Below are positions 1 to 35,597 of a stretch of DNA of 35,597 nt, in pieces. The notes under the pieces are model-generated. The model saw only the letters and a list, made by a program, of their open reading frames with translations. It had not been told where the DNA came from and did no database searches. The stretch comes from a virus. Position 1 is the first letter of the stretch, and the number at the start of each line of letters is the position of its first letter. The translations under genes were made by a program, and so were the position numbers. The DNA is taken from positions 1 through 35,597 of IMG/VR virus record IMGVR_UViG_3300011115_000261, one strand, 5' to 3'.

Positions 1-395
1 CCTACCAGTATGCGCTGCCGACCGAGCCGTACTGCCTGCGCGTCTTGGAATTCTCCAATGGCTCTATGTCCTATCCGCAGGACAACATGACATCAAACAG
101 CGGCGGTCCTGTGTTCGTAATTGAGGGTCGCAAGCTTCTTACGGATGAGGGCAGCGCTCAGATCAAATATGTTGCGCGTGTCACTGACCCGCAGGAATAT
201 GACGCCAGCCTGGTTGAAGCTTTGTCTGCGCGCCTAGCGTCTGAGATCGCTTATGCCGTCACCGGATCGACATCGGTTGTGCAGCTAGTAGCCGCAATCT
301 ATGACGAAAAGATGCGCGAAGCTCGGTTTATTGATGCCACTGAAGGTGCGCCGCAAAGGATTGAAGCCAGCGACTTTATTGATTCGAGGTTCTGA
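1..395 (+). CDS. Tail tubular protein A, C-terminal part (truncated by window start)
   Basis: The reading frame is open from base 3 and ends in TGA at 393-395. It matches residues 72-201 of the complete copy at 33175-33780 with only a few changes (for example LASEIA against LATEIA, AVTGSTS against AITGSTT). In T7-like phages tail tubular protein A (gp11) forms the adaptor ring between the portal and the nozzle made by tail tubular protein B, which is the next gene and overlaps the stop by one base (TGATG). An ATG at 45 lies inside the conserved region and is not the real start. The family call rests on position and resemblance; the truncation is caused by the window edge. Confidence 0.85.
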   Translation, partial: YQYALPTEPYCLRVLEFSNGSMSYPQDNMTSNSGGPVFVIEGRKLLTDEGSAQIKYVARVTDPQEYDASLVEALSARLASEIAYAVTGSTSVVQLVAAIYDEKMREARFIDATEGAPQRIEASDFIDSRF

Positions 396-2911
396 TGGCT
401 CGTTCAGCACCGGCTCTAAGCTCATTCACGGCAGGCGAGATCTCGCCACGGCTTGAGGGCCAGATCACGCTGGAGAAGTACCGGCAGGGTCTGTCCACCC
501 TGACCAATATGATCTGCATGCCGCACGGCGGTGTGACCCGTCGCCCTGGCACTGAGTTTCTCGGTGAGGTTAACAACAGCGCAGCCAAGGCACGTCTGAT
601 TCCGTTTCAGTTTAAGACCACCGACACCTACATGTTAGAGTTTGGGCCTTTGACGATGCGAGTGTATCGCAACGGCCTACAGGTGTTGACTGGATCGGCC
701 AAGACAATCACAGCCGTGACGCGGGCAAACCCTGGTGTGCTGACATCCGTAGCCCACGGGTTTGCCAACGGCGACGAGATTTACATCACTGGCGTTGTTG
801 GCATGACGCAGCTAAACGATCGTAATTATCGTGCTGCCAACGTGACAGCCAATACGTTCACGCTTGTGGATTTGTTTGGCGCTCCAATAGACACAACCGC
901 CTTTACGGCTTATGCCTCTGGCGGAACGGCCGACAAGGTCTATCAGATCACGACGCCATATGCTGAAGCCGATCTATTTTCCCTGCGCTACGCGCAGTCG
1001 GCAGACGTTATGTATATTGTGCATCCGAATTACGATATGCGCATTCTTTCGCGCACAGGGTCTGCGGCATGGACCCTTGTCATCCCGATCGTTCAAGGCT
1101 CGCTTCTCACAGCAAAAACGGTTGAAAACATTACGCAGGCCAACCCTGGCGTTGTGACTGTCACCGGCCACGGGTTTAGCAATGGCGACGCGGTGCAACT
1201 TAACAACATCAAGGGCATGGTTGAAGTAGAAGGTACAAACTTCCTTGTTGCTAGTGTTACTGCAGACACCTTTGCGTTGAAGGATGCGGGCAACAACAAT
1301 ATCAATACCACCAGCTACACAGCATTTGTTAAAGGTGGTGGGACTAGCAAAGTAATCACCGGCGCCACGGCCGCCAACCCAGTTGTTGTGACATCAGCAG
1401 CTCACGGGTTTGCCAATGGCGACATCATATACATCAGCGGCGTAGTTGGCATGACGCAACTGAACGGCCTGTATTACAAAGTTTCGGCGGTTGCTGTGAA
1501 TACCTTTGCACTGCAAACTGTGGGCGGAACCAACGTAAACGGCACTGCCTACACGGCCTATAGCTCTGGCGGCACGGCAGAACTCGGCGCGTCTAAGGTG
1601 CAGAAGGTTGGCCCCGCAGCAACGCCACTGACCGGAGCAGACAACCGCCCCAGCGTTGTCACATTCTTTGAGCAGCGCTTGGTGTTCGGCAATAGCAACA
1701 ACAACCCACAGACCCTGTGGTTCAGCAAGAACGGCAATTACCTCAACTTTACGGTTGGCACGGCCGCCGATGATGCGCTGATCTATACGATCGCTTCCAG
1801 CCAGGTGAATGCCATCCGCTATCTATCGGCCACCCGTGTGCTGGCGCTTGGCACCTCTGGTGGCGAATATGTTGTGACGGCCACCAGCGACGGCCCGATC
1901 ACGCCGACCACAACGCTGATCCGCAAATACTCCAACTACGGCGTTGCCGCAGTTGAGCCTATTCAGGTGGCCGATGTTACGCTGTTTTTGCAGCGCGGCA
2001 ATCGCAAGATCAGGGAATTCAAGTACGTCGGCGATGTAAACGCAGACGCCTATACGGCACCTGATCTGTCAATCTTGGCCGAGCATATCACCAAAGGCGG
2101 CATCACGCAGTTTGCCTACCAGCAAGAGCCTGACAGCATCATCTGGATGGCCCGTACCGATGGCACACTGATTGGCATGACGTATCGCCGCGAAGAGCAG
2201 GTAGTCGCATTCCACAAGCATGTGATCGGCGGCGCCTTTAACGGCGGCCAGGCGGTTGTTGAAAGCGTGGCAACGCTGCCATCAGAGACGGGCGAGGATG
2301 AGCTTTACATGATTGTAAAGCGCACGATCAATGGTGTGACCAAGCGCTATGTAGAGCTGATGAAGCCTTTTAACTTTGGCGGTATCACAACCGGCGCGTT
2401 CTTTGTGGACAGCGGCCTAGCATACAGTGGCACTGGTGTGACCACCCTGTCTGGCCTGCACCACCTACAAGGTGAGACGGTGTCCATCCTAGCTAATGGC
2501 GCCAGCCATGCAGATAAGACTGTGGCAAGCGGCGCTGTGGCCCTAGACTTCTCCACAACCACGGCCGCGATCGGCTACGGCTACAGCAGCATCATGGAAA
2601 CCCTGCGCATTGAGGCTGGGTCTGTTGACGGCACAAGCCAAGGCAAGCCTAAGCGCATCCACGGCATCACGGTGCGCCTGCATGAGACGGTCGGCGCTGA
2701 AGTCGGCAGCGGCCCTGACAAGCTTGATCGGATCTACTTCCGCGACAGCTCAATGCCGATGAACCAAGCCGTGCCGCTGTTTACAGGCGACAAGGATGTT
2801 GAGTTTGAAGGTGGCTTTGACGATGATGACCGCGTCTATGCGCGTCAGACCCAGCCGCTTCCGATGACTATTCTTGCGCTATTCCCGCGCATGAACACTT
2901 TCGACAAGTAG
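395..2911 (+). CDS. Tail tubular protein B (tail nozzle), 838 aa
   Basis: Long structural protein directly after tail tubular protein A. The N-terminus (SFTAGEISPRLEGQ, then the MPHGGVTRRPGTEFLGEV stretch) is the hallmark start of T7 gp12-like nozzle proteins in podoviruses; residues 410-620 carry the conserved EQRLVFG, NTLWFSKNG-like and GGEYVVTATSDGPITPTT segments. Family role: six copies form the tail nozzle through which ejection proteins and DNA pass. Unusual feature: three tandem repeats of about 75 residues (about 104-179, 241-316, 319-396), each with an NPG/NPVVVTS, HGF.NGD, VGM.QLN, TFxL and T.Y.A..SGGT pattern, resembling the FCCH-like beta modules annotated in phage tail proteins. 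A second, diverged and truncated copy starts at 33780. Confidence 0.88.
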   Translation: MARSAPALSSFTAGEISPRLEGQITLEKYRQGLSTLTNMICMPHGGVTRRPGTEFLGEVNNSAAKARLIPFQFKTTDTYMLEFGPLTMRVYRNGLQVLTGSAKTITAVTRANPGVLTSVAHGFANGDEIYITGVVGMTQLNDRNYRAANVTANTFTLVDLFGAPIDTTAFTAYASGGTADKVYQITTPYAEADLFSLRYAQSADVMYIVHPNYDMRILSRTGSAAWTLVIPIVQGSLLTAKTVENITQANPGVVTVTGHGFSNGDAVQLNNIKGMVEVEGTNFLVASVTADTFALKDAGNNNINTTSYTAFVKGGGTSKVITGATAANPVVVTSAAHGFANGDIIYISGVVGMTQLNGLYYKVSAVAVNTFALQTVGGTNVNGTAYTAYSSGGTAELGASKVQKVGPAATPLTGADNRPSVVTFFEQRLVFGNSNNNPQTLWFSKNGNYLNFTVGTAADDALIYTIASSQVNAIRYLSATRVLALGTSGGEYVVTATSDGPITPTTTLIRKYSNYGVAAVEPIQVADVTLFLQRGNRKIREFKYVGDVNADAYTAPDLSILAEHITKGGITQFAYQQEPDSIIWMARTDGTLIGMTYRREEQVVAFHKHVIGGAFNGGQAVVESVATLPSETGEDELYMIVKRTINGVTKRYVELMKPFNFGGITTGAFFVDSGLAYSGTGVTTLSGLHHLQGETVSILANGASHADKTVASGAVALDFSTTTAAIGYGYSSIMETLRIEAGSVDGTSQGKPKRIHGITVRLHETVGAEVGSGPDKLDRIYFRDSSMPMNQAVPLFTGDKDVEFEGGFDDDDRVYARQTQPLPMTILALFPRMNTFDK
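704..1582 (+). repeat. Three tandem ~75-residue beta repeats inside tail tubular protein B
   Basis: Protein units at about residues 104-179, 241-316 and 319-396. Units 1 and 3 remain alike at DNA level (around 745-805 and 1390-1460, both encoding AHGFANGDxIYIxGVVGM), pointing to duplication within the gene. Unit 2 is more diverged (GHGFSNGDAVQLNNIKGM). The pattern is that of FCCH-like insertions; the assignment is by motif only. Confidence 0.7.
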
Positions 2912-10800: not shown

Positions 10801-11155
10801 GATGATGCGGTTGGCTAAGGATGTTGGCGGCTGGCCGATCAGCAACCCCGACAGCATCAGCAGCATCAAGCTCAGTGCTGGTGCCAAATCTGACCTAACG
10901 CGGATTGCCAAAAATGAGGTGACACTAAACCTTTATGGGATGGGTTATGCCGATTTCAGAGGGGCGCTTGAGCAATTGATCTTCACGCCGGAATATTCAA
11001 TGATGACCGACGCGGGTAAGCGCAACATGGTACGCAACCTGAACAGCAAGTTTGTTGATGCCGGAACAGAGACTTTGCTCCTATTGCCAGAGTATGCTAA
11101 CTTGGCGCAAGCCTATCAGGACGTACAGTCTCTTAAGAAGAAAGGTTTGCAATGA
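7817..11155 (+). CDS. Large internal virion / ejection protein (gp16-position), 1112 aa
   Basis: The largest gene, at the position of T7 gene 16, immediately before the tail fibre. Residues 1-230 are Ala/Pro/Gln-rich and probably disordered; residues 230-440 are helical; the segment around 430-480 (LLSAPSTQVKNVIGTIGFMA) has the flavour of phage large polyvalent proteins; 700-860 contains several hydrophobic patches and a Tyr/Gly-rich stretch. Unlike T7 gp16 I find no clear soluble lytic transglycosylase motif, so cell wall opening during infection may rest elsewhere. The gene overlaps the fibre start (ATGA). The call is from size, order and composition. Confidence 0.6.
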   Translation: MAFDPNQLATEQSQRTAMDAAGAPTEFASAPEQLTRVAQVGAFRELLQKLGRNVIKEVPPTVAQSAAGLVDPRFAPAPGAVAAEAAPLASAAPVQRIPTPQERRLLADNPQYSERAAQEALAPQVLSPEGVQRFQQRGLEAPGVNAPVVPATPEVLQSASDALNQQAADAAAGAEAIRKDAGKALNAEAQGFRAEAGVAPEAIADPVLDAMAKRDLEIKSLTEGGDFNFDYLNTTDDVKAVITAVGQTLSSEQAAITRGVVSNKTTIEEASKLAADELGLTRSLLSRKIGDGSLNAAEMVAARDLLVRSATKLATLAESIKTGNATSTDRLAFRRQLAIHAGIQLQLKGAQTEAARALQSFRIPVAGEMSANRMSADAMAALKESGDDSATDALAQRILETGRLTEGQRLQAINALAEKGWGAKTADIVSEAYMVGLLSAPSTQVKNVIGTIGFMAAQLPEEMLAGAWGAVIRKIKGKSTPYNLREDQVYMADAMIRVKGWVDSIGDAFRIASKAYRTEIPTSDMNKLDYNVGAIRWTGDNTGTFYAKAIDEFGKRARLPFRLLLAGDEFFKTISQRGELYVAAHQRYQAGLRAGESSKYALDEAGMVLLDPRSVSEDLLYKSRYDTMTLDTGLLGKMASKLQNIPVLGRIILPFATAPTNDMLRVMERLPIPIGGKQLYQNLLGQNGPKAQQLALGRWSMGSMTFAYVANLATEGRVTGATPDDAKERQALPPGWQPYSIVLRGEGFPKNADGEDMPLYDEYGRPNGPLTYVNYAGYGPYSAVVGLAATVPQKLAMARDPEKAQSLATAALGSVADYYKELPMLQGISQIMDFADGFSIEQIARSPASSATPLGVPNIFSSLQRGVTRGMDPTRVTPRDAVEYYTMADADAGHASDDPLFSNPDGSVSYRLVGSAKSDVGQQMREVWTMMRAYQQQDSMFADEKDLNAIQYDTLGNAIGAEDVSFAARPGLAIWNLTTGVIVKPGRELTAAESEMMRLAKDVGGWPISNPDSISSIKLSAGAKSDLTRIAKNEVTLNLYGMGYADFRGALEQLIFTPEYSMMTDAGKRNMVRNLNSKFVDAGTETLLLLPEYANLAQAYQDVQSLKKKGLQ

Positions 11156-13284
11156 CCGTCAGCAGCGCCACCAGCAAAGTACAGTACAACGGCAATGGCT
11201 CGACCACTGTCTTTGCGTACACTTTCAAGGTCTTCGACCAGAACGACCTGACCGTCATCGTGCGATCGGCCACTGGTACTGAGACGGTCAAGACGATCAC
11301 GACCCACTACACGGTTAGCGGTGTCGGCAGCGCAGGTGGCGGCAACATCACGATGCTGACGGCTCCAGCGTCTGGCGAGACGCTGACCGTTCTGCGGGAA
11401 CAGGATCTGGTGCAAGAGCTGGACCTGGTCGAGAACGATCCGTTTCCCGCTCAGTCGCTGGAAGATGCGCTGGATAAACTGACCTTCACGGTACAGCAGC
11501 ACAGCGAAGAGCTTGACCGAGCAATCAAGGCATCGCGCACCAACACCATCACATCTACCGAATTCACGGTGTCGGCGGCATCGCGCGCCAACAAGATCTT
11601 TGCCTTTGACAGCGCCGGCGAGCTGGCCGTCACGCAAGAGCTTGGCACTTACCGCGGCAACTGGGCAACCGCCACAGCCTTTGCGCAGCGCGACATAGTC
11701 AAGGACACGTCCAACAACAACATCTACATCGTTGTCACAGCCCACACATCCACCGGCTCTCAGCCGATCAGCAGCAATGCCGATGTTGCCAAGTGGGCGC
11801 TGATTGTGGATGCAGCCTCGGCCACTACGTCTGCCTCGGCTGCGTCAGGCTCTGCGTCGGCAGCTGCATCGTCTGCCTCGGCGGCTGCCACATCGGCAAC
11901 CAACGCGGCCAACTCTGCCACCTCTGCCTCAACTTCGGCCTCAACGGCTACAACCCAGGCCACCAATGCTGCTGCGTCTGCGGCATCTGCCGCTGCCAGC
12001 TTTGATGCCTTTGACGATATTTACCTTGGGTCGAAGTCTAGCGATCCCAGCGTTGACAACGATGGCAACGCGCTGACTGTCGGCGACCAGTACTTTAACT
12101 CTGTCGCCAATGAATTGCGCGTTTGGAACGGCACGACTTGGCAGGCGGCATCGACTGTCGGCGGCACAGTTTCGTCGCTTGCTGTTACGGGTGTTGCATC
12201 CTTCGCAGATGGCACAGCTGCAGCACCATCCATTGCCCACACGGGCGACCTCAACGCTGGCATCTTCTTTCCCGCTGCGGATACAGTTGCTTTGTCTACG
12301 GCTGGCAATGAGCGTTTGCGTATCAGCTCAGACGGCCTAGTAGGGATTGGGGGAGCTTCTAGCGGACCAAAATTAGCAGTTACTGCTGCTGCCAACTCAT
12401 CATCTTTAGTCCTAACAGATGCTACTCAGTCAACTTTGACTATTAAGCACGAAGCTACAAATTTACTTACATATGAAACAGGAGGTGCAGCAGTTCAGCG
12501 TTGGGTTTTGAATGGCGTAGAACGTATGCGTATCGACGCCTCTGGCAACGTGGGGATTGGCACGACTACGCCGGGTTCTCCTTTAGATGTTACTAGCACT
12601 GTAACAATTGGCAACTATGCTCTTAACGCGAATTTACAGCTTACTCGCGCCGAAGGCACACGGACAGCACCAACTCAAGTTACTGCTGCAGCTATTTTGG
12701 GAACACAAACTTTCTATGGTTTGGATAATACTTCAGCTTATCGTGAAGTGGCTCAAATCAGAGCAGTATCAGACGGCGCTATTACATCAACATCATCCCC
12801 AGGGTATTTAACCTTTCGCACTACCTTTTCTGGGTCTGTTTCGACTGCTGAAGCTATGCGGATCACCTCCGCTGGCAACGTGGGGATTGGCACGAGTGCG
12901 CCAATAACACCTCTTCACGTTACTGGTGATACGATGACTACTGGCGTTGTCTATAGGGCGCAACCAGCACAGACATCAAAGGCCGCTGCGGCAACCCTGA
13001 CCATCGCAGAACTTCTCACTGGCATCATCCAATATACGGGTGCGGCTGCTACGTTAACCTTGCCGACAGGGGCATCAATCGAAGGTGGCCTACCAGCTAC
13101 ATTCCCGTCAGGTATGTCATTCGACGTTTCATTCATCAACACAGGGGCTGCATTGCTAACCATTGGCAATGCGGCAAGTGGTTTAACTTTGTTAGGGAGC
13201 ATGACTGTCGCAAGCGGCACATCTGGCATACTTCGGTTTCGGAAAAGCTCTGCAAATAACTATAACGTTTATCGCGTGGCGTAA
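11152..13284 (+). CDS. Tail fibre with T7-type N-terminal domain, 710 aa
   Basis: Residues 1-135 match the T7 tail fibre N-terminal domain pattern (QYNGNGSTTVFAYTFKVF, LTVLREQDLVQELDLVENDPF, EDALDKLTFTVQQHSEELDRAI), which docks the fibre to the tail. Residues 140-215 form a small module with FRGNWATA-like carbohydrate-binding flavour; 221-285 is an Ala/Ser/Thr repeat shaft; 288-332 holds a conserved DDIYLGSKSSDPSVDNDG segment; the rest has three GNVGIG-type beta repeats (about 393, 465, 575). GNVGIG repeats often precede an S74 chaperone domain, which is absent here. The ATG overlaps the upstream TGA. Codon use in 12355-12870 is clearly more AT-rich than in neighbours, suggesting an acquired receptor-binding part. 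Confidence 0.88.
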   Translation: MTVSSATSKVQYNGNGSTTVFAYTFKVFDQNDLTVIVRSATGTETVKTITTHYTVSGVGSAGGGNITMLTAPASGETLTVLREQDLVQELDLVENDPFPAQSLEDALDKLTFTVQQHSEELDRAIKASRTNTITSTEFTVSAASRANKIFAFDSAGELAVTQELGTYRGNWATATAFAQRDIVKDTSNNNIYIVVTAHTSTGSQPISSNADVAKWALIVDAASATTSASAASGSASAAASSASAAATSATNAANSATSASTSASTATTQATNAAASAASAAASFDAFDDIYLGSKSSDPSVDNDGNALTVGDQYFNSVANELRVWNGTTWQAASTVGGTVSSLAVTGVASFADGTAAAPSIAHTGDLNAGIFFPAADTVALSTAGNERLRISSDGLVGIGGASSGPKLAVTAAANSSSLVLTDATQSTLTIKHEATNLLTYETGGAAVQRWVLNGVERMRIDASGNVGIGTTTPGSPLDVTSTVTIGNYALNANLQLTRAEGTRTAPTQVTAAAILGTQTFYGLDNTSAYREVAQIRAVSDGAITSTSSPGYLTFRTTFSGSVSTAEAMRITSAGNVGIGTSAPITPLHVTGDTMTTGVVYRAQPAQTSKAAAATLTIAELLTGIIQYTGAAATLTLPTGASIEGGLPATFPSGMSFDVSFINTGAALLTIGNAASGLTLLGSMTVASGTSGILRFRKSSANNYNVYRVA
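12542..12895 (+). repeat. 24-bp exact direct repeat within the tail fibre gene
   Basis: The 24 bases at 12542-12565 recur exactly at 12872-12895 (both contain GCAACGTGGGGATTGGCACG). They encode the GNVGIGT motif and flank most of the AT-richer fibre segment, so they could act as recombination points for exchange of the fibre tip. Confidence 0.8.
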
Positions 13285-18243: not shown

Positions 18244-18392
18244 TTTTCTTCCTCTAGTTTAGTGGCAACTGCACGATAGTAGCGGCACAAACGTAACAGC
18301 TCACGACTTCGTGCGGGTAAAGTGTCTGCAAGTGCATCTCCTGCCTTTAGCAAAGCATCAGCTTTCTTCGTAGCATCCTCTGCCTTAGTCAT
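18240..18392 (-). CDS. Small helical protein, 50 aa
   Basis: Start chosen at the ATG at 18392, which overlaps the end of the Lar-like gene by eight bases; the frame is open further upstream but that part runs over the neighbour. The product is a charged helical protein (MTKAEDATKKADALLKAGDA, then RSRELLRLCRYYRAVATKLEEEK). It fits the overlapping operon pattern. No family recognised. Confidence 0.55.
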   Translation of the reverse strand: MTKAEDATKKADALLKAGDALADTLPARSRELLRLCRYYRAVATKLEEEK

Positions 18393-18852
18393 CCTCACCC
18401 TCCAGTTCAGCCAGCGCATAAGTGGCAATCGCTGAACAAGACCGATTGGCATGACGGCTGATCTTTTGTAGATACGATTTCGCCTTGGTCAGCTTGGCTT
18501 CTGCTTCATCCAGCCTCTCTTGCCTGACCCACCCATGCTCCTCGCCTATCTGCTTTGCGACAGCACTAACTAGCGCAGCCTCACGGATAGCAACGGGGTC
18601 GATGGTGGGCAGGGCGCGGGTGTTCCATGCGGCGATGGCTTCGGCTTTTGTAGGATACCCAACATTGCCAACAATATTTGTCACGCTGCATGATATGCAG
18701 TTGCAGAAATAAGCTTTAGTGATTTCTGAACCATCATCCCAATGCGTGTCAGGCAGCGCTTTCGACCATATTCTAAGGCCTCTATCTGAGGCTTCCCCCC
18801 CGCAAAATGGGCAAGGCAACAGCGCATCATCGCGCTTGATCATGTCAGTCAT
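18385..18852 (-). CDS. Lar-like restriction alleviation protein, 155 aa
   Basis: Residues 10-80 match the Lar/restriction alleviation zinc-ribbon pattern: LLPCPFCGGEA (C14, C17), then C50/C52/C55 and EAIAAWNTRA. Rac prophage Lar modulates type I restriction-modification so that incoming DNA survives; many phages carry Lar-like proteins of untested activity. Residues 85-155 form an added helical region. Its place in the leftward early-type operon with other host-directed small genes fits an anti-restriction job. ATGA overlap with the gene upstream. Confidence 0.75.
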   Translation of the reverse strand: MTDMIKRDDALLPCPFCGGEASDRGLRIWSKALPDTHWDDGSEITKAYFCNCISCSVTNIVGNVGYPTKAEAIAAWNTRALPTIDPVAIREAALVSAVAKQIGEEHGWVRQERLDEAEAKLTKAKSYLQKISRHANRSCSAIATYALAELEGEDD

Positions 18853-19160
18853 TTTGTTTTCTCCATGTTTTGTTTGTAAGCCACCGCCGCCGCACGGAAC
18901 CGCTTCATGCCGGTGGGGCTATCGGTCGAGATCACCTTGCGCACATACTTCTCGCTCAGGCCCAGCGCACGGGCGGCCGATGCGATCGAGGGGAACGACA
19001 GCCCCTCAACCTCAACAGGCTTTCGCTTCGTATTGCCGAGGCCAAGCAATTCCATCTTGCCACGCCACAGCGCCGAGTAAACTGCAGCCTCGCTGACATC
19101 CAGGCTTAACGCTGTCTGCCTGACGCTGGCGTAGGTCACGCCCCTGACTTTGGTGATCAT
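18849..19160 (-). CDS. Double HTH DNA-binding protein (NUMOD1-like), 103 aa
   Basis: The ATG at 19160 overlaps the previous stop. The N-terminal half has a helix-turn-helix (YASVRQTALSLDVSEAAVYSAL); the C-terminal half (LSFPSIASAARALGLSEKYVRKVI) has the NUMOD1/IENR1 pattern found beside homing endonuclease domains. No HNH or GIY-YIG nuclease residues are present, so it is likely a stand-alone DNA-binding protein or a remnant. Possible role: regulator of the phage early region. Confidence 0.65.
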   Translation of the reverse strand: MITKVRGVTYASVRQTALSLDVSEAAVYSALWRGKMELLGLGNTKRKPVEVEGLSFPSIASAARALGLSEKYVRKVISTDSPTGMKRFRAAAVAYKQNMEKTK

Positions 19161-19387
19161 AGGCCTACCCCCCAATAGCCGGCCAGCACCTGCGCTGGCG
19201 TCTCGATGCCCTGCTTCTTGCTGGCCTTGATGTCATCCACCAACACGCGGTTGCACATCGTGCGCACCCGCTCACTCTTCAGCCCAAGCATCTTGGCAAC
19301 CTTGACAGCCTGGTGCTGCATCCTGAGATCCAACATGCGCAGCAGGTACTCGTCATCCTGCCGCGTTGTGTGCTTGCCGCCGCTCAT
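19157..19387 (-). CDS. HTH-type small protein, 76 aa
   Basis: Contains a helix-turn-helix-like segment (QHQAVKVAKMLGLKSERVRTMCNRVLVDD). Basic N-terminus, Gly-rich C-terminus (LAGYWGVGL). ATGA overlaps tie it to both neighbours. Its regulator role is inferred from the HTH only. Confidence 0.6.
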   Translation of the reverse strand: MSGGKHTTRQDDEYLLRMLDLRMQHQAVKVAKMLGLKSERVRTMCNRVLVDDIKASKKQGIETPAQVLAGYWGVGL

Positions 19388-20208: not shown

Positions 20209-20303
20209 CACTGCCACCCGAATCCGTACAGCAGGAAGAAGATGCCAGGTATCATGGCGAAGAGGCACAGGCAGCCGATTAGGTCTTCTAAGAATTCACG
20301 CAT
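20208..20303 (-). CDS. Tiny membrane peptide, 31 aa
   Basis: ATG at 20303 has AAAGGAAA seven bases upstream. After MREFLEDL the peptide is one hydrophobic helix (IGCLCLFAMIPGIFFLLYGFG). It lies just after the hairpin that follows the RMF-like gene. Membrane micro-proteins of this kind are common in phage early operons; its target is unknown. Confidence 0.55.
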   Translation of the reverse strand: MREFLEDLIGCLCLFAMIPGIFFLLYGFGWQ

Positions 20304-20333
20304 TTGGTTTCCTTTTCTAAGATGAGAGGTGGT

Positions 20334-20349
20334 GGGGGCCGAAGCCCCC
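20334..20349 (-). terminator. UUCG hairpin after the first leftward gene
   Basis: On the minus strand GGGGGC-TTCG-GCCCCC, a six-pair GC stem with an extra-stable UUCG tetraloop, starts seven bases after the TAA of the 51-aa gene. No T-run follows, so it may be a partial terminator, attenuator or mRNA 3-prime end stabiliser that sets the first gene's level above the nine genes behind it. Confidence 0.6.
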
Positions 20350-20355
20350 GTTGAG

Positions 20356-20511
20356 TTACGCAGTTTTGAAACCTTCTTCCCACGCATATGCTTGCAATGT
20401 TTCGCGTGTGAAGCTGTAAGGGTTATCAAAAATCTCCAAGCCAGAAAGTTTGGCGCTCCGGCCTTCTTCTGCTGCTTGCCGTGCTGCGTGAGATCCGATC
20501 ATTTTTTTCAT
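20356..20511 (-). CDS. RMF/CrpP-like small protein, 51 aa
   Basis: ATG at 20511 has AAGGA upstream; stop TAA at 20356-20358. The sequence shows A..EGR.A...G (residues 14-24), DNPY (29-32) and AxAWEEGF (41-48), the Gly-Ala-Gly...PY...AW..G scaffold of the ribosome modulation factor superfamily and of the related CrpP-type proteins of mobile elements. RMF dimerises ribosomes; CrpP-like proteins have disputed roles in quinolone resistance. Here it is the first gene of the leftward operon, right behind a consensus-like promoter and operator, so it should be among the earliest and most abundant products. A ribosome- or stress-directed host takeover role is inference. Confidence 0.65.
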   Translation of the reverse strand: MKKMIGSHAARQAAEEGRSAKLSGLEIFDNPYSFTRETLQAYAWEEGFKTA

Positions 20512-20527
20512 CCTTGTTTGCTAGTTC

Positions 20528-20545
20528 GTTTCGTCTACGCAATTG
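20528..20545 (-). promoter_or_regulatory. Operator-like repeat A (inverted)
   Basis: On the minus strand CAATTGCGTAGACGAAAC, matching copies B and C at 15 core positions (ATTGCGTNNRCGAAA). It lies directly after the -10 of the leftward promoter, where a bound repressor would block initiation. Confidence 0.7.
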
Positions 20546-20572
20546 ATATAGGCACTGCTTCACCACTGTCAA
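20545..20572 (-). promoter_or_regulatory. Leftward sigma70-type promoter
   Basis: Minus strand TTGACA (20567-20572), 16-base spacer, TATATC (20545-20550). This is a full consensus -35 with a good -10 and lies about 30 bases before the ribosome-binding site of the first leftward gene. It indicates early transcription by host RNA polymerase. Confidence 0.7.
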
Positions 20573-20580
20573 GGCCACCA

Positions 20581-20598
20581 CAATTGCGTAAGCGAAAT
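20581..20598 (+). promoter_or_regulatory. Operator-like repeat B
   Basis: CAATTGCGTAAGCGAAAT. Centre is 53 bases from copy A and 54 from copy C, about five DNA turns, so proteins bound at the three sites would face the same side and could form loops. Confidence 0.7.
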
Positions 20599-20634
20599 AT
20601 TTTTCACTTGCCATCGGCCACGCAAGAGGCGCAT

Positions 20635-20652
20635 AGATTGCGTCTGCGAAAC
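20635..20652 (+). promoter_or_regulatory. Operator-like repeat C
   Basis: AGATTGCGTCTGCGAAAC, overlapping a possible -10 (TAGATT, 20634-20639) of the rightward promoter and ending just before GAGGGGG, the ribosome-binding site of the Cro-like gene. Suited to autoregulation. Confidence 0.7.
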
Positions 20653-20664
20653 GAGGGGGCCGCG

Positions 20665-20847
20665 ATGGTCTACACAATCAAAGAGCTGAAGATGATGCTG
20701 GCGGGGCAACCGCTCAAGTCGATCTCGGTTGGCTCAGGCGTACACCACGTCACGCTGTGGCGGCTGGTCAACAACCGGCAAGAGGCCAAGGAAGGCACAC
20801 TGATCAAGCTTACCGATTACGTAAAGAAGGCGATGCAAGATGCCTAA
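20665..20847 (+). CDS. Cro-like HTH regulator, 60 aa
   Basis: ATG 20665 has GAGGGGG six bases upstream; an open frame extends to 20329 but that region holds the divergent promoters and an opposite gene. The protein is one small HTH domain: SISVGSGVHHVTLWRLVNNRQ (helix 2-turn-helix 3) followed by TLIKLTDYVKKAM. It resembles minimal Cro/LacI-type phage regulators. Three operator-like repeats lie in the 150 bases before it, so it probably represses or switches the divergent leftward and rightward promoters. It overlaps the following nuclease gene by eight bases. Confidence 0.75.
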   Translation: MVYTIKELKMMLAGQPLKSISVGSGVHHVTLWRLVNNRQEAKEGTLIKLTDYVKKAMQDA

Positions 20848-21223
20848 CGGCCGCAACAAGGGCGCCGCGTTTGAGCGCAGCATCGCGCAGGATTTATTCC
20901 TAGAGCTGGGCATCAAGTTTGCCCGCGATCTGCGGCAGTACCAGGAATCCGAATTCGGCGACCTGGTCACCGACGATCCGGCATGGCCGTACATGCTGGA
21001 GCTGAAGCGCTACGCCGCCGGCCCGATCGGTGGATCGGAAGCCTGGTGGAAGCAGGCCTGCGCTGCGGCCGACAAGGCGCACAAGCAGCCCGTGCTGATC
21101 TACAAGTACGATCGGCAACCCATCCGCTGTGTGCTTATGCTGCAGGGTGTGCGGGCCGACATGACGTTCCCCGATTTCTGTTATTTAGCAAGAGAGAGAA
21201 TGGCACATGACGCAAGCCTCTAA
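20840..21223 (+). CDS. PD-(D/E)XK endonuclease, Holliday junction resolvase-like, 127 aa
   Basis: Starts GAAFERSIAQDL (conserved acidic residue E12), then D41 (FGDLVTDD) and E54-L-K56 (YMLELKR), giving the E...D...ExK core of small archaeal-type resolvase-like nucleases, followed by WWKQA and PVLIYKYDRQPIR strands. Length is right for a single-domain phage nuclease. Role: cutting branched replication or recombination intermediates before packaging. Overlaps genes on both sides, placing it in the rightward replication operon. Confidence 0.75.
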   Translation: MPNGRNKGAAFERSIAQDLFLELGIKFARDLRQYQESEFGDLVTDDPAWPYMLELKRYAAGPIGGSEAWWKQACAAADKAHKQPVLIYKYDRQPIRCVLMLQGVRADMTFPDFCYLARERMAHDASL

Positions 21224-21980
21224 CGGTTTCACCAAGCACGGCATCGATCACCTGTCTGCATCCAGCATCAACCTGTGGGCCAATGCGCCCGACGTGTGGG
21301 TCATGCAGTACCTGCACTTCAAGCGCACCCCGATGGGGCCGGCCGCATGGCGTGGCATCTGCACCGAGGATGCCGTGGCCGCCACGCTGATGGGCGGCGC
21401 AATCACCGAGTGCATCGACCAGGCCATCGCCAAGTTTGACGGCAAGTACATCATCGGCGACGAGGCCACCACCCGTGAGCGCGACCGGATCAAGCCCATG
21501 ACCGAGCTGGCCGTGGCCGAGCTGGAACAGTACGGCAAGCCGTTCTTTCCAGAGGTTGAAGATGGCGACCACCACCAGAACAAGATCGAGATCATCGCCA
21601 AGGGCGACGGCTGGACGATCCCCGTGATCGGTTACCTTGACCTGGTCTATCCAGATCACGGCGTGATCATCGATCTCAAAACCACCGGCCGCATACCAAC
21701 CACGATGTCTGCCGAGCATCAGCTGCAGCGCGCCATCTACGCCAAGGCCAATGGCAACATGGCCGTGAAGTTCCTGTACGTCAGCGAGAAGAAGACCAAC
21801 TTGCTGGAAGACGGCGACCCGACAGAGCTGCTTGCCAAGGCCAAGGTGCAGATCGGCCGCATGGAAGCCTTCCTGCGCCATGTGGACAAAGACATCGCGC
21901 GCGAGATTGTGCCGCTCAACACGGCCAGCTTCTACTGGTCGGGCAACGAAGCCCTGCGCAAAGAATTCTACGGGGTCTGA
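21207..21980 (+). CDS. PD-(D/E)XK nuclease, RecB/Cas4-like, 257 aa
   Basis: N-terminal LSASSINLWANAPDVWVMQYL (16-36) is the usual RecB-type nuclease lead helix. Active site: D145 (IGYLDLV), D156-L-K158 (IIDLKT) and QxxxY at Q174-Y178 (QRAIY), matching motifs II, III and the RecB Gln-x3-Tyr. Family members are exonucleases that resect DNA ends. Next to an SSB-like gene it could form a recombination pair, or process genome ends. It overlaps the resolvase-like gene by 17 bases. Confidence 0.82.
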   Translation: MTQASNGFTKHGIDHLSASSINLWANAPDVWVMQYLHFKRTPMGPAAWRGICTEDAVAATLMGGAITECIDQAIAKFDGKYIIGDEATTRERDRIKPMTELAVAELEQYGKPFFPEVEDGDHHQNKIEIIAKGDGWTIPVIGYLDLVYPDHGVIIDLKTTGRIPTTMSAEHQLQRAIYAKANGNMAVKFLYVSEKKTNLLEDGDPTELLAKAKVQIGRMEAFLRHVDKDIAREIVPLNTASFYWSGNEALRKEFYGV

Positions 21981-22754: not shown

Positions 22755-24977
22755 GTGACCCTCATGTCGGATAATAAGACCGAAGACCAGAAAACGCAAT
22801 CAAATCCTGAACAAATCAGGCAGTTCTTTAACTACATTACGCAGGGTTGGGATGAACTTTGGGTGCGCTGGGCCGACATAAACGCCGAGCCGCTGATCGA
22901 ATTGCGCTGCATCAGCAGCAACCGAGGCGTGAACGTGCAGCGCTTTGCTGTCGGCCAGATCGACGATGCCGTGCAACACGCAGAAGCCATGAATAAGCAC
23001 GGGCAAAACGTGTACATGTGCATCAACCCGATCGACGGGCGCGCTGTGATACCAGCCGGCAAGGCCGCCACAGATAAAGACATCCTCGCCGCCATGTTCT
23101 GCTTTGCAGATGCCGACACGGATGGATCAATGGCGAACGTGCTGTCATTCGCCGGCCCGAAATTTACGATGAGCGTCAAGACCGGCACGACGCCTTACGT
23201 CCGAGGCCATGCCTACTGGCAGCTGGAAGAACCGTGCATCAACCTCGATGCATGGCGCCAGGTGCAGGCCAGCATCGCGGCCAGCCTTGGCACTGATCCG
23301 GTCGTGATCAACCCAAGCCGGATCATGCGTGTCGCTGGCACAATCAGCTACCCGAACAAAGACAAGCAGGGCCGTGGCTACATCCAAGAGATGGTCACGA
23401 TGCGCACGGAATTCAGCAGCGACCGTGACCCTGTGCCTTTTGAGCGCATGATGCGGGCATTCCCGCCCACACAGCGCAGCAGCTCGGCCACCACAGCCGG
23501 CATCCAGATCGACCTGGGCCAGCAGGCGATGGACCGAGCAATGGCAGAGGCCGAGATCCTGACCGGCAAGGATTGGCATCACAACGTCGTGCGCCTCATT
23601 GCCTCATACGTCAGCCGTGGCCTGTCCGACACAGAGATCCACGCCCTGACCGATCGCCTCACACTGCCAGGCTATACGGTCGAGGACACCAGACGAGAGG
23701 TGCAACAGGCAATCGACGGCGCGAGATCAAAGGGATGGACGCCTGAACCTGACACAATCCAACAGAAGATGGACGTGCAAGTGCCAGCGGTGGCACAGCA
23801 ATTCGATGCGCCCAAGGTAGACGTTGCGCAGCCGACGTGGCCGACGCCGATCGAGGACTTCAACCCGCTCAACCTGCCCCGCAGACACTGGATCTATGGG
23901 CGCACCTACATCAGATCCTACGTCAGCCTCACGGCGTCGGCCGGTGGCATTGGCAAGACCAGCCTGACGATGGTCGAGGCGGTGGCAATCGCAACGGGGC
24001 GCAAGCTCTTAGAGCAAGACGTACATGAGCGCACAAAGGTCTGGGTGATCAGCCTTGAAGACCCGCGCAGCGAGGGTCTGCTACGCCTTGCGGCCATCAT
24101 GCAGCATTACAATGTAAAGCACGAAGACTTGGCGGGTTGGCTGTTCCTCGATGGGGAAGATGACATCAGGATCACCCTGGCCGCCGAGACACGAGAAGGT
24201 GTGACAGAGAACGACGCCCTGCTTGAGTACATGATCAACAAGGTCAAGACGCTGGGCATCGGTGTCGTGATCATGGACCCGCTGATCGGCGCGCACCAGG
24301 TCAACGAGAATTCCAATATGGCCGTGCAGGTGGTGGTTGCCATGCTGCGCAGGCTGGCAAGGGAAACCGGCGCATCTGTGCATCCAGTGCATCACATCCG
24401 CAAGGGCAATGGAGAAGACGCCGGCGTTGACAGTGTACGCGGCGCCAACGCCTTGATCGGGGCAGCACGGGCAGCGCGCGTCCTCAACAAGGTGTCCGAA
24501 GAACAGGCAGAGAAGCTCGGCCTAGAGGGCGACGCAGGCAAGGGCCTGTTCCGCATAGACGATGCCAAGGCCAACCTCGCAGCGCCATCAGACAAGGCCA
24601 CCTACATGCAGACCATCGGCGTACAGATCGCCAATGGCGAGTACATCGCAGTTGTCGTGCCGGTCACCCTGCCCGATGCATTCGAAGGCGTGACAGCAGA
24701 GGCCGCGATGAAGGTGCAGCGCATGATAGGTCAGGCCGATGATGATCCCTACAGAGAAAGCAGCCAAGCCAAGAGATGGGCCGGCCATGCCATTGGTGAG
24801 CTGCTTAACATCGACACGACAGAGAAGGCAGGCAAGGGCCGCGTGTCGCTGATCATCAAGCAGTGGGTCAAGACAGACGTGCTGCGGATTGAGAAGATGC
24901 TGGACGCACGGCAGGGCCGAGAGACAGCCATTTTGATCGTGGGAACATGGATCAATAGGGATGAGGCAGGGCTGTGA
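22755..24977 (+). CDS. PrimPol-type primase fused to RepA-like helicase, 740 aa
   Basis: Residues about 60-225: archaeo-eukaryotic primase fold signs, D119-x-D121 (FADADTDG), H152 (RGHAYW) and D181 with NPSRIMRVAGTISYPNK, as in PrimPol-like phage and plasmid primases. Residues 260-335 are a helical linker domain (WHHNVVRLIASYVSRGLSD). Residues about 385-590: RecA/RepA-like hexameric helicase with Walker A GGIGKTS (397-403), Walker B VVIMD (504-508) and HH 546-547. GTG 22755 is preceded by GAGGAAGAGG; ATG 22764 is the alternative. It primes and unwinds DNA at the replication fork; with no phage DNA polymerase gene in the unit, it must recruit the host enzyme or use its own PrimPol activity. 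Confidence 0.85.
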   Translation: MTLMSDNKTEDQKTQSNPEQIRQFFNYITQGWDELWVRWADINAEPLIELRCISSNRGVNVQRFAVGQIDDAVQHAEAMNKHGQNVYMCINPIDGRAVIPAGKAATDKDILAAMFCFADADTDGSMANVLSFAGPKFTMSVKTGTTPYVRGHAYWQLEEPCINLDAWRQVQASIAASLGTDPVVINPSRIMRVAGTISYPNKDKQGRGYIQEMVTMRTEFSSDRDPVPFERMMRAFPPTQRSSSATTAGIQIDLGQQAMDRAMAEAEILTGKDWHHNVVRLIASYVSRGLSDTEIHALTDRLTLPGYTVEDTRREVQQAIDGARSKGWTPEPDTIQQKMDVQVPAVAQQFDAPKVDVAQPTWPTPIEDFNPLNLPRRHWIYGRTYIRSYVSLTASAGGIGKTSLTMVEAVAIATGRKLLEQDVHERTKVWVISLEDPRSEGLLRLAAIMQHYNVKHEDLAGWLFLDGEDDIRITLAAETREGVTENDALLEYMINKVKTLGIGVVIMDPLIGAHQVNENSNMAVQVVVAMLRRLARETGASVHPVHHIRKGNGEDAGVDSVRGANALIGAARAARVLNKVSEEQAEKLGLEGDAGKGLFRIDDAKANLAAPSDKATYMQTIGVQIANGEYIAVVVPVTLPDAFEGVTAEAAMKVQRMIGQADDDPYRESSQAKRWAGHAIGELLNIDTTEKAGKGRVSLIIKQWVKTDVLRIEKMLDARQGRETAILIVGTWINRDEAGL

Positions 24978-33174: not shown

Positions 33175-33780
33175 ATGACCAGCACAGTTGATATTGCGAA
33201 CTATGCGCTCAACATGATCGGGGCTTCCAACATTTCTAGCTTTGATGAAAACAGCAAGGCGGGGCGTTTGGTCAACCAGCGCTATGCCGGTGCGCGTGAT
33301 GCCGTCTTCCGCTCACACCCTTGGAATTGCCTAATCCGCCGTGCTGCGCTGGCTCAGGAGACTGAGACGCCTGCCTTTGGCTATACCTACCAGTATGCGC
33401 TGCCGACCGAGCCGTACTGCCTGCGCGTCTTGGAATTCTCCAATGGCTCTATGTCCTATCCGCAGGACAACATGACATCAAACAGCGGCGGTCCTGTGTT
33501 CGTAATTGAGGGGCGCAAGCTTCTTACGGATGAGGGAAGCGCTCAGATCAAATATGTTGCGCGTGTCACCGACCCGCAGGAATACGACGCCAGCCTGGTC
33601 GAGGCTTTGTCTGCGCGTCTGGCGACTGAGATCGCCTATGCCATCACCGGATCGACCACCGTCGTGCAGCTAGTGACCGCGATCTACGACGAGAAGATGC
33701 GCGAGGCCCGTTTTGTTGATGCCACCGAAGGTGCGCCGCAAAGGATTGAGGCCAGCGACTTTATTGAATCGAGGTTCTGA
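33175..33780 (+). CDS. Tail tubular protein A, complete, 201 aa
   Basis: AAAGGGG lies upstream of the ATG. Starts TSTVDIANYALNMIGASNISSFDENSKAGRLVNQRYAGARDAVFRSHPWN in separate conserved blocks, the typical N-terminus of T7 gp11-like tail adaptor proteins, with C-terminal VEALSARLATEIAYAI and EGAPQRIEASDFIESRF. It binds the portal ring and holds the nozzle. Comes directly after the capsid terminator and overlaps the nozzle gene by one base. The window start holds the end of a diverged second copy of this same gene. Confidence 0.88.
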   Translation: MTSTVDIANYALNMIGASNISSFDENSKAGRLVNQRYAGARDAVFRSHPWNCLIRRAALAQETETPAFGYTYQYALPTEPYCLRVLEFSNGSMSYPQDNMTSNSGGPVFVIEGRKLLTDEGSAQIKYVARVTDPQEYDASLVEALSARLATEIAYAITGSTTVVQLVTAIYDEKMREARFVDATEGAPQRIEASDFIESRF

Positions 33781-35597
33781 TGGCTCGTTCAGCACCGGCT
33801 CTAAGCTCATTCACCGCCGGCGAGATCTCGCCACGGCTGGAAGGCCAGATCACGCTGGAGAAATACCGGCAGGGTTTGTCCACGCTGACCAACATGGTCT
33901 GTATGCCGCATGGCGGTGTGGCTCGTCGCCCTGGCACAGAGTTTCTCGGTGAGGTCAAGAACAGCGCGGCTAAGGCTCGACTGATCCCGTTTCAGTTTAA
34001 GACCACCGACACCTATATGTTAGAGTTTGGGCCATCGACAATGCGGGTGTATCGCAACGGCCTACAGGTGTTGACTGGATCGGCCAAGACAATCACAGCC
34101 GTGACACGGGCAAACCCTGGTGTGCTGACCTCTGTAGCTCACGGGTTCAGCAATGGCGATGAGATTTACATCACCGGCGTTGTTGGCATGACGGAGCTGA
34201 ACGGGCGCAACTACCGAGTCGCCAACGCCACGGCCAACACGTTCACGCTGCAGGATTTATTCAGCGTTGCAATCAACACGACCGCCTTTACAGTTTACAG
34301 CTCTGGCGGATCAGCCGACGAGATCTATCAAATCACGACGCCTTACATCCAAGCCGACCTGTTTGACCTGCGCTACGCGCAGTCGGCAGACGTTATGTAT
34401 ATCGTGCATCCGAATTACGATATGCGCATTCTTTCGCGTACAGGGTCTGCAGCGTGGACCCTTGTTACCCCGATCGTTCAAGGCTCGCTTCTCACAGCAA
34501 AAACGGTTGAAAACATTACGCAAGCCAACCCTGGCGTTGTGACTGTAACCGGCCACGGATTTAGCAACGGTAATGCGGTACAACTTAACAACATTGAAGG
34601 CATGGTTGAAGTAGAAGGCACAAACTTTCTTGTCGCCAACGTCACTACAAATACCTTTGAACTGAAAGACGCAGGCAACAACAACATTGATACCACCGGC
34701 TACACAGCATTTGTTAAAGGTGGCGGGGCTAGCAAAGTAATCACCGGCGCCACGGCCGCCAATCCAGTTGTTGTGACATCAGCAGCTCACGGGTTTGCCA
34801 ATGGCGACATCATATACATCAGCGGCGTAGTCGGCATGACGCAACTGAACGGCCTATATTACAAAGTTTCGGCGGTTGCGGCAAACACCTTTGCACTGCA
34901 AACGGTGGCTGGGGTTAACGTAAACGGCACTGCCTACACGGCCTACAGCTCTGGCGGCACGGCAGAGATCGGTGCGTCTAAGGTGCAGAAGGTTGGCCCC
35001 GCAGCAACGCCGCTGACCGGAGCAGACAACCGGCCCAGCGTTGTCTCGTTCTTTGAGCAGCGCTTGGTATTCGGGAACAGCAACAACAACCCGCAAACCC
35101 TGTGGTTCAGCAAGAACGGCAATTACCTCAATTTTACGGTTGGCACGGCCGCCGATGATGCGCTGATCTATACGATTGCATCCAGCCAGGTGAACGCCAT
35201 CCGCTATCTATCGGCAACCCGTGTGCTGGCGCTTGGCACCTCTGGCGGCGAATATGTTGTGACCGCAACCAGCGACGGCCCGATCACGCCGACCACAACG
35301 CTGATCCGCAAATACTCCAACTACGGCGTTGCTGCGGTTGAGCCTATTCAGGTGGCCGATGTTACGCTGTTTCTGCAGCGCGGCAATCGCAAGATCAGGG
35401 AATTTAAATACGTCGGCGACGTAAACGCAGACGCCTACACGGCGCCTGATCTGTCGATCTTGGCAGAGCATATCACTAAGGGCGGCATCACGCAGTTTGC
35501 CTACCAGCAAGAGCCTGACAGCATCATCTGGATGGCCCGTACCGATGGCACACTGATTGGCATGACGTATCGCCGCGAAGAGCAGGGAGTCGCATTC
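33386..35597. repeat. Second copy of the window-spanning overlap
   Basis: Colinear with 1-2212, offset 33,385. The first 127 bases are identical, then diverged, by eye roughly 5-10 percent overall. A non-synonymous change lies near the very end (EEQGVAF here, EEQVVAF at about 2200). Confidence 0.93.
33780..35597 (+). CDS. Tail tubular protein B, second copy, N-terminal ~606 aa (cut by window end)
   Basis: No stop before the window end. Same protein as at 395-2911, with identical start (MARSAPALSSFTAGEISPRL) and triple repeat. Amino acid differences cluster in the repeats: unit 1 reads LQDLFSVAINTTAFTVYSSG here against LVDLFGAPIDTTAFTAYASG there; unit 2 TTNTFELKD against TADTFALKD; unit 3 TVAGVNVNG against TVGGTNVNG. 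Residues outside are almost unchanged although DNA differs at many silent sites. It is the same gene in a sister strain, not a second gene of one genome, unless a tandem duplication is shown. Confidence 0.85.
   Translation, partial: MARSAPALSSFTAGEISPRLEGQITLEKYRQGLSTLTNMVCMPHGGVARRPGTEFLGEVKNSAAKARLIPFQFKTTDTYMLEFGPSTMRVYRNGLQVLTGSAKTITAVTRANPGVLTSVAHGFSNGDEIYITGVVGMTELNGRNYRVANATANTFTLQDLFSVAINTTAFTVYSSGGSADEIYQITTPYIQADLFDLRYAQSADVMYIVHPNYDMRILSRTGSAAWTLVTPIVQGSLLTAKTVENITQANPGVVTVTGHGFSNGNAVQLNNIEGMVEVEGTNFLVANVTTNTFELKDAGNNNIDTTGYTAFVKGGGASKVITGATAANPVVVTSAAHGFANGDIIYISGVVGMTQLNGLYYKVSAVAANTFALQTVAGVNVNGTAYTAYSSGGTAEIGASKVQKVGPAATPLTGADNRPSVVSFFEQRLVFGNSNNNPQTLWFSKNGNYLNFTVGTAADDALIYTIASSQVNAIRYLSATRVLALGTSGGEYVVTATSDGPITPTTTLIRKYSNYGVAAVEPIQVADVTLFLQRGNRKIREFKYVGDVNADAYTAPDLSILAEHITKGGITQFAYQQEPDSIIWMARTDGTLIGMTYRREEQGVAF

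Follow-up and report, generated by a model that had tools for sequence, protein, structure and literature searches.

The small Cro repressors of phages lambda and P22 are autoregulating proteins that work with three operators and divergent promoters. A related arrangement is the switch of plasmid pLS20, which is said to combine divergent promoters with a DNA loop. In the regulators of the AcrIIA15 and Aca type the repressor binds at its own promoter. The AcrIIA15 NTD consists of four helices, of which alpha2-alpha3 form the HTH, and as a dimer it sits on an inverted repeat, bends the DNA and represses its own promoter (PMC10901769). The promoters of Aca systems carry one or two inverted repeats, one of which always lies inside the predicted core promoter (PMC9410906). 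For archaeal viruses, a conserved early regulatory sequence has been reported to guide the discovery of anti-defence genes (PMC11065993).

Here we describe a divergent promoter region in the record IMGVR_UViG_3300011115_000261, the 35,597 bases of a marine-type bacterial virus (the window, by which the whole analysed stretch is meant). Three operator-like sites occupy the intergenic stretch that separates a leftward set of small genes from a rightward block headed by the gene of a 60-aa HTH protein. We consider it likely, with good confidence, that this protein is an early autorepressor of both divergent operons, and that the sites are part of a conserved brake and not of a switch between lysis and dormancy.

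The virus and its lineage

The large terminase of the window is 55.6% identical to that of the Pelagibacter phage HTVC203P and 54.9% identical to that of HTVC010P, over 89% of its length, and the portal matches Head-tail_con, the podovirus head-tail connector family PF12236. Two features of HTVC010P-type podoviruses, an HTVC010P-like terminase and a head-tail connector, are therefore present, and on the similarity of terminase and portal we call the virus HTVC010P-like. The HTVC010P genome is similar in size to that of the window, but its G+C content is 32% as against 56%, and the whole HTVC010P record is without a homologue of the 60-aa HTH gene. A DNA search of the phage collection with window positions 12000-35000 gave zero matches, and the lineage treated here is one of podoviruses represented by metagenome contigs only. 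The two ends of the window (1-2212 and 33386-35597) are 91% identical over 2212 bases, which indicates that the contig probably overruns one genome length, joining near-duplicate sequences or two strain variants; a single genome unit would then measure about 33.4 kb. Elsewhere, a 21-bp tandem repeat is found at 11829-11886, within a long ORF (11152-13284).

Operator-like sites and promoters

Three exact copies of ATTGCGTNNRCGAAA are present, at 20529-20543 on the minus strand and at 20583-20597 and 20637-20651 on the plus strand, and no further copy occurs in the 35,597 bases of the window with up to two mismatches allowed. The unit of the site is a 14-bp dyad, TTGCG-N4-CG(A/C)AA, with centres at 20535.5, 20590.5 and 20644.5, that is, at distances of 55 and 54 bp.

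20529..20542, minus strand: O1, TTGCGTAGACGAAA; candidate operator on the predicted leftward transcription start; at most two mismatches in 21 contigs of clades A-D
20584..20597, plus strand: O2, TTGCGTAAGCGAAA; candidate operator centred some 54 bp upstream of each predicted start; kept in all 21 clade A-D contigs and in L102
20638..20651, plus strand: O3, TTGCGTCTGCGAAA; candidate operator on the predicted rightward transcription start; at most two mismatches in 21 contigs of clades A-D

The evidence for these sites from the window by itself is modest. With up to two mismatches, three occurrences of ATTGCGTNNRCGAAA are found against 2.0 expected, and 31 of 100 shuffles reach three; the loose motif count by itself is not significant. 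A motif-blind search for triples, defined as three 15-mers with pairwise at most three mismatches within 140 bp, returned two places in the window, the operator region and the coding tandem repeat at about 11829, and any triple at all was obtained in 3 of 60 shuffled windows. The decisive support is comparative, and by sequence comparison the three operator-like sites are confirmed as real.

Promoter-like sequences flank the middle site on both sides, and their elements are predicted as follows.

20567..20572, minus strand: PL -35 hexamer TTGACA, from sequence; exact in 18 of 19 contigs examined, all but L016
20543..20548, minus strand: candidate PL -10, TATCAA, with an 18-nt spacer; 4/6 matches only
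20545-20550, minus strand: alternative PL -10, TATATC, with a 16-nt spacer, by eye
20608..20613, plus strand: PR -35 hexamer TTGCCA; TTGCC in 21/21 aligned contigs, as TTGCC(A/T)
20632..20637, plus strand: candidate PR -10, CATAGA, with an 18-nt spacer; weak, 3/6
20595..20605, plus strand: A+T-rich stretch upstream of the PR -35 in the alignment; possible UP element

Both -10 boxes are weak, that of PL adjoining O1 and that of PR adjoining O3, and a scan for consensus promoters and terminators over 20300-20900 returned none at the thresholds used. If transcription starts about seven bases past each -10, the centres of O1 and O3 would coincide with +1 of PL and of PR, respectively, and O2 would sit near -54 relative to either start. 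A further promoter candidate overlapping O2, noticed by eye, was dropped for want of a conserved -35.

An earlier note on this DNA had described three repeats, spaced by 53 and 54 bases, in a divergent region with a consensus leftward promoter. The repeats themselves stand, being exact, unique in the window and retained in 21 contigs of four clades, and promoter-like sequences are indeed found on both sides. The spacing of 54 is borne out, but that of 53 is wrong, as the dyad centres are 55 apart; the difference arose because an off-centre 18-mer, with one copy inverted, had been measured. Of the leftward promoter, the -35 is an exact TTGACA, but the -10 matches at only four of six positions and the consensus scan was negative.

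Conservation among relatives

Homologues of the HTH gene were found in 29 distinct contigs or records, made up of IMG/VR relatives, the window and the record of phage CASP1; they fall into clades A (six), B (six), C (three), D (six), E (two) and F (three), to which L102, L107 and CASP1 are added. With a retained site defined as one with no more than two mismatches to TTGCGTNNRCGMAA, applied to each of the three, the sites and their spacing are retained in 21 of the 29 records, belonging to four clades (A-D). The distance between O1 and O2 is 55 bp in 21/21 contigs, and that between O2 and O3 is 54 in 15 (clades A, B and C) and 55 in 6 (clade D); in the alignment of clade C, one base lost and one base gained between O2 and O3 cancel out. 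Contigs inside a clade are near-copies, and the independent unit is the clade (n=4). The earlier note had let its proposal depend in part on whether motif and spacing recur in related genomes, and in these four clades both are conserved.

Across the 21 sequences, 22 of the 27 dyad-core columns are invariant versus 10 of 77 other columns (the N4 columns, counted among the latter, contribute 1 of 12), in a count with the PL -35 displaced by two bases, a shift that touches that row and two of the 'other' columns only. Invariant core columns number 8/9 in O2, 8/9 in O3 and 6/9 in O1, and the template slid to other offsets (26 placements) gave at most 18/27. The PR hexamers are also kept, being invariant at 5/6 and 4/6 columns in the same sequences, and to judge from this alignment part of the conservation here is therefore that of the promoter.

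The exact dyad is present in 24 of 27 whole records with the HTH gene, every listed match lying in the operator region, and the three records without it are all of clade F. In clade E (L045 as scanned; L046 the same by its printed sequence) the region is arranged otherwise, an exact dyad and a second dyad with a single mismatch standing 18 bp apart before the gene, so that it is the protein, rather than the layout, that the dyad accompanies. In L102, whose HTH protein is 60% identical, O2 is perfect, O1 is by eye about 4 bp short and O3 was not found; the full three-site set is accordingly not universal. The stretch upstream of position 3001 in L102, where O2 is the one intact site, amounts to a natural experiment on what the middle site does. 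Clade F, with 43% identity and a different recognition helix, has an altered site at most: L071 carries TAGCGTCGGCGCCA, with two mismatches, and the scan of L069 gave nothing convincing (clade F was scanned on these two contigs, and L070 was viewed as printed sequence). The dyad is absent, at up to two mismatches, from the remote homologues L107 and CASP1. It is found at 0/16 loci that have the common exonuclease and no detected HTH homologue, 13 of which are informative in having more than 1 kb upstream (L067, L075 and L078, with little or no upstream DNA, were left out). Across these alignments and scans, the dyad tracks close relatives of the protein, and the layout with three sites tracks clades A-D.

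A scan of viral contigs for tandem dyads at the DNA level, with the start-to-start spacing left free between 40 and 70, returned 31 stretches. In the 19 that have a close HTH homologue, all of them already-known contigs, the spacing is always 54 or 55; in the 12 that have none, two stand at a spacing of 54 and ten at others. L119, with 32% identity to a generic XRE-like stretch and a spacing of 64, was placed outside the 19. The two stretches with a spacing of 54 and no HTH gene (L128 and L136) each overlap a mechanical ORF and were taken as chance. A viral-contig scan for pairs of TTGCG-N4-CGCAA gave 43 stretches. By eye, several TTGCG-N4-CG(A/C)AA dyads can be seen beside XRE-type HTH genes at about 885-1000 in L119 and at about 3007-3150 in L127, two viral contigs in which no close homologue of the window HTH gene is present; the dyad may be a shape reused by HTH regulators of this broad class. 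A literature search with three spellings of the dyad found no paper.

The HTH protein

20665..20847, plus strand: 60-aa HTH protein, proposed autorepressor (family alignment; AlphaFold2 model with pLDDT 94; fold matches to AcrIIA15-NTD and Aca11)

The HTH character of the gene that had been placed beside the sites is supported by modelling, as the AlphaFold2 model (pLDDT 94) predicts four helices in a single HTH domain, and 13 relatives of the protein could be aligned over 61 columns. The best solved structures in Foldseek are AcrIIA15-NTD and Aca11, with a probability of 1.00 and an E value that is not significant (best 0.023), and against these two the VIA Z is 8.8-8.9 over 56-60 residues. 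By sequence, no family was found in Pfam or NCBIfam and no convincing match among solved structures (PDB), nor was there an Aca match in these three collections, dedicated Aca profiles being outside the search. A PHROG of transcriptional regulators matches weakly (E 0.007), and among named phages there is one weak match, at 35%, in Alcaligenes phage CASP1. A peptide-pattern scan of 84,980 bacterial and archaeal species genomes, which reaches only relatives with the patterns of the HTH protein, gave 69 pattern matches and no confirmed relative.

Neighbouring genes

The rightward block continues from the HTH gene with nuclease and replication genes, and the leftward block consists of small genes.

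20840..21223, plus strand: PDDEXK_15 endonuclease, second rightward gene (PF24608, E 2.9e-14)
21207..21980, plus strand: exonuclease-like protein, third rightward gene (weak PHROG exonuclease matches)
22755..24977, plus strand: 740-aa AAA_25 protein, likely a replication helicase or primase-helicase (PF13481, E 2.5e-31)
20511..20524, minus strand: PL leader with a likely ribosome-binding site, CTAGCAAACAAGGA; copies before further leftward genes in some relatives
20356..20511, minus strand: first leftward gene, 51 aa (48 aa from the second ATG), RMF (ribosome modulation factor)-like (PF04957, E 9e-4, below the curated cut-off)
18849..19175, minus strand: 108-aa protein with NUMOD1/HTH-like stretches, no nuclease-domain match
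18385..18852, minus strand: Lar-like restriction-alleviation protein (phrog_599, E 1.3e-10; PF14354, E 5.9e-6, just below the cut-off)

In most contigs the first leftward gene is another than that of the window, and 12 families were counted in 21 contigs by a mechanical call (first ATG ORF of at least 30 aa within 200 nt; blastp E 1e-3) that may over-split short proteins. The sample comprises 20 of the 21 three-site contigs and L102, L039 having been omitted for want of sequence; for L013, L014, L015, L017 and L018 the call fell on a small membrane-like protein that resembles a later gene of clade D. A C5 cytosine methyltransferase is present in the leftward block of L005, L013 and L035. The leader CTAGCAAACAAGGA, with zero to two mismatches, directly follows O1 in 14 of 20 contigs, and further copies precede later genes of the leftward block in eight of these 20 (L016, L019, L020, L035, L037, L038, L040 and L102), and zero copies were found on the opposite strand of the same 20. 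In this recurrence the leader resembles a cassette boundary. The pattern fits an exchange of genes at a common leader, with anti-restriction among the cargo and a putative role in anti-defence.

Proposed mechanism and alternative explanations

The early brake that we infer would act as follows. On infection, host RNA polymerase would fire the divergent PL and PR, of which PL would serve the leftward operon, made up of small accessory genes, and PR the 60-aa HTH gene and then the nuclease and replication genes. The HTH protein would build up and dimerise, one dimer binding each 14-bp dyad, and the dimers at O1 and O3, on the two start points, would block the polymerase. O2 would lie about 54 bp upstream of both starts, where the alpha-subunit tails of the polymerase would bind, and a dimer at this site may damp both promoters jointly or aid the binding of the outer dimers. 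Early transcription would thus come as a pulse and then be shut off; searches of the record gave neither an integrase nor a lysogeny repressor for this phage. This proposal is supported by the fact that the dyad accompanies the HTH gene across clades and is absent from the 13 informative loci without the gene, by the retained sites and spacing of clades A-D, by the predicted fold with its likeness to AcrIIA15-NTD and Aca11, and by the other palindromes found where a ribbon-helix-helix gene fills the slot (L061, L062 and L060); it is weakened by the weak -10 boxes, by the exceptions in L102, clade F, L107 and CASP1, by the non-significant Foldseek E values, by the conserved PR hexamers, by the number of clades (four only) and by a scan that recovered known contigs only. 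Among the matches listed from open-licence PMC papers, there was no title on such a module.

The same repressor could also work by DNA looping, in which dimers on neighbouring sites would form tetramers and close loops of 55 or 109 bp. A spacing that varies by no more than 1 bp among four clades, with indels that cancel in clade C, would agree with such loops, and at 11 bp per turn the sites would be 0 to 33 degrees off phase; at 10.5 bp per turn, however, the phases become 51, 86 and 137 degrees. A 55-bp loop is, moreover, very tight, and the protein is modelled as one 60-aa domain, in which no tetramerisation part can be seen. We infer that promoter geometry suffices for the fixed spacing without looping, as the outer sites on the starts and the middle one at -54 would fix it anyway, and looping appears unlikely.

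It is doubtful, too, that O2 is an activation site, at which a dimer would recruit polymerase to either or both of the promoters while O1 and O3 repress, such that the protein would activate at a low level and repress at a high one. The core of O2 is as conserved as that of O3 in the 21 sequences (8/9 each, as against 6/9 in O1), O2 is the sole site kept in L102, and weak -10 boxes at both promoters would suit activation. Activators of the CRP type take positions at -41.5 and -61.5, however, and -54 presents an unusual face for classical activators.

A bistable lysis-lysogeny switch like that of lambda is brought to mind by three operator-like sites in a divergent region with an adjoining Cro-like gene, and a genetic switch in a phage with no visible integrase was what the earlier note proposed. 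The integrase remark holds, as the search of the record with Phage_integrase (PF00589) was negative, and so were those with Peptidase_S24 (PF00717) and resolvase (PF00239), in searches that were positive for 14/14, 10/14 and 10/14 control genomes, respectively. The diversity of the first leftward gene (12 families in 21 contigs) leaves no conserved opposing repressor in that place, and the pattern scan of 84,980 genomes, limited to relatives with the patterns of the protein, confirmed no HTH relative where some would be expected if the family resided in prophages. A repressor of another type elsewhere in the record is possible; with no second regulator conserved and no S24 repressor, integrase or resolvase detected, the switch is nonetheless very improbable and that part of the note is not supported. 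Binding of the phage protein to the sites is a prediction, and a host regulator might bind them instead, but the chance of this appears slight indeed: the dyad follows the gene over clades and layouts and is absent in the 13 informative relatives without it, and similar dyads stand, by eye, beside XRE-type HTH genes in L119 and L127. Chance repeats or plain promoter conservation are scarcely credible, even with a loose motif count in the window that is not above chance and with PR promoter columns that are conserved as well, as the conservation is concentrated in the dyad cores, not in the N4 or most flanks, and the dyad recurs in the different layout of clade E.

Possible replacement of the regulator

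Some relatives share the exonuclease but have no detected HTH homologue; upstream of this exonuclease, L060, L061-L064, L065, L066 and L068 carry a small gene of the ribbon-helix-helix class. These genes are NikA-like, with TacA1, ParD and HicB matches in L066 and L068, and the matches in L060, L061 and L065 are below the curated cut-off; in L076, a YdaS-like HTH gene, likewise below the cut-off, occupies the place of the regulator. Three of the ribbon-helix-helix loci have palindromes of their own.

L061, 3281-3358: 21-nt inverted pair, 18/21 matching; reached in 0/100 shuffles
L062, 1845-1922: 21-nt inverted pair, 19/21 matching; reached in 0/100 shuffles
L060, 1004-1076: pair of another type, 18 nt, 15/18 matching; reached in 1/100 shuffles

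In each of these pairs the two arms stand on opposite sides of the divergent gap, at a distance of 57 bp in L061 and L062 and of 55 bp in L060, and a scan for repeat pairs in L065, L066, L068 and L076 gave nothing convincing. The claim of a replaced circuit thus refers to L061, L062 and L060; L063 and L064 have the same regulator as L061. Promoter-like hexamers and -10 boxes at the ribbon-helix-helix loci, noted by eye, were given no weight.

A wider reading, possible and here advanced tentatively, is that of a plug-in port. The conserved promoter, operator and leader of a virulent-looking podovirus lineage would serve as the place at which small host-takeover and anti-defence genes are exchanged, the autorepressor would limit their dose, and the regulator would itself be replaceable, such that the circuit outlives the protein. 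A port with exchanged cargo and replaced regulators is the more interesting part of this proposal. If the cargo reading is true, O1 and the leader would be an entry point, a bait for anti-defence and host-takeover genes, and the early accessory genes at the port, 12 families in 21 contigs, mostly have no assigned function. Unrelated regulators in the same place would, if true, be a clear case of a circuit that is conserved while its protein is replaced. Apart from the port, the early brake itself offers a predicted and easily tested operator and regulator for a podovirus lineage represented by metagenomes only.

Comparison with known systems

With the Cro systems of the lambda/P22 type, the window shares a small proposed repressor, three operator-like sites, divergent promoters and the proposed autoregulation. 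It differs from them in that no CI partner or integrase was found, and its sites are 54-55 bp apart on separate promoters, whereas the operators of lambda are clustered. Divergent promoters are also the point of likeness with pLS20; the difference is that the regulator of the window is a single 60-aa domain, for which looping is putative.

The likeness to Aca and to AcrIIA15-NTD extends to the protein, predicted to be a small four-helix HTH domain, to an inverted repeat inside a candidate promoter (O1 and O3 at the predicted starts) and to the proposed autoregulation. Aca systems have one or two inverted repeats per promoter (PMC9410906), whereas the window has three sites for two divergent operons. 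Its HTH operon carries nuclease and replication genes, unlike that of Aca systems, and no anti-CRISPR is known in the window, the Lar-like gene being the only candidate of a related kind. To the discovery of anti-defence genes in archaeal viruses (PMC11065993) the locus is similar in having a conserved early regulatory sequence ahead of variable genes, and it differs in that the virus is a bacterial podovirus, the conserved sequence contains an operator dyad and the cargo is putative.
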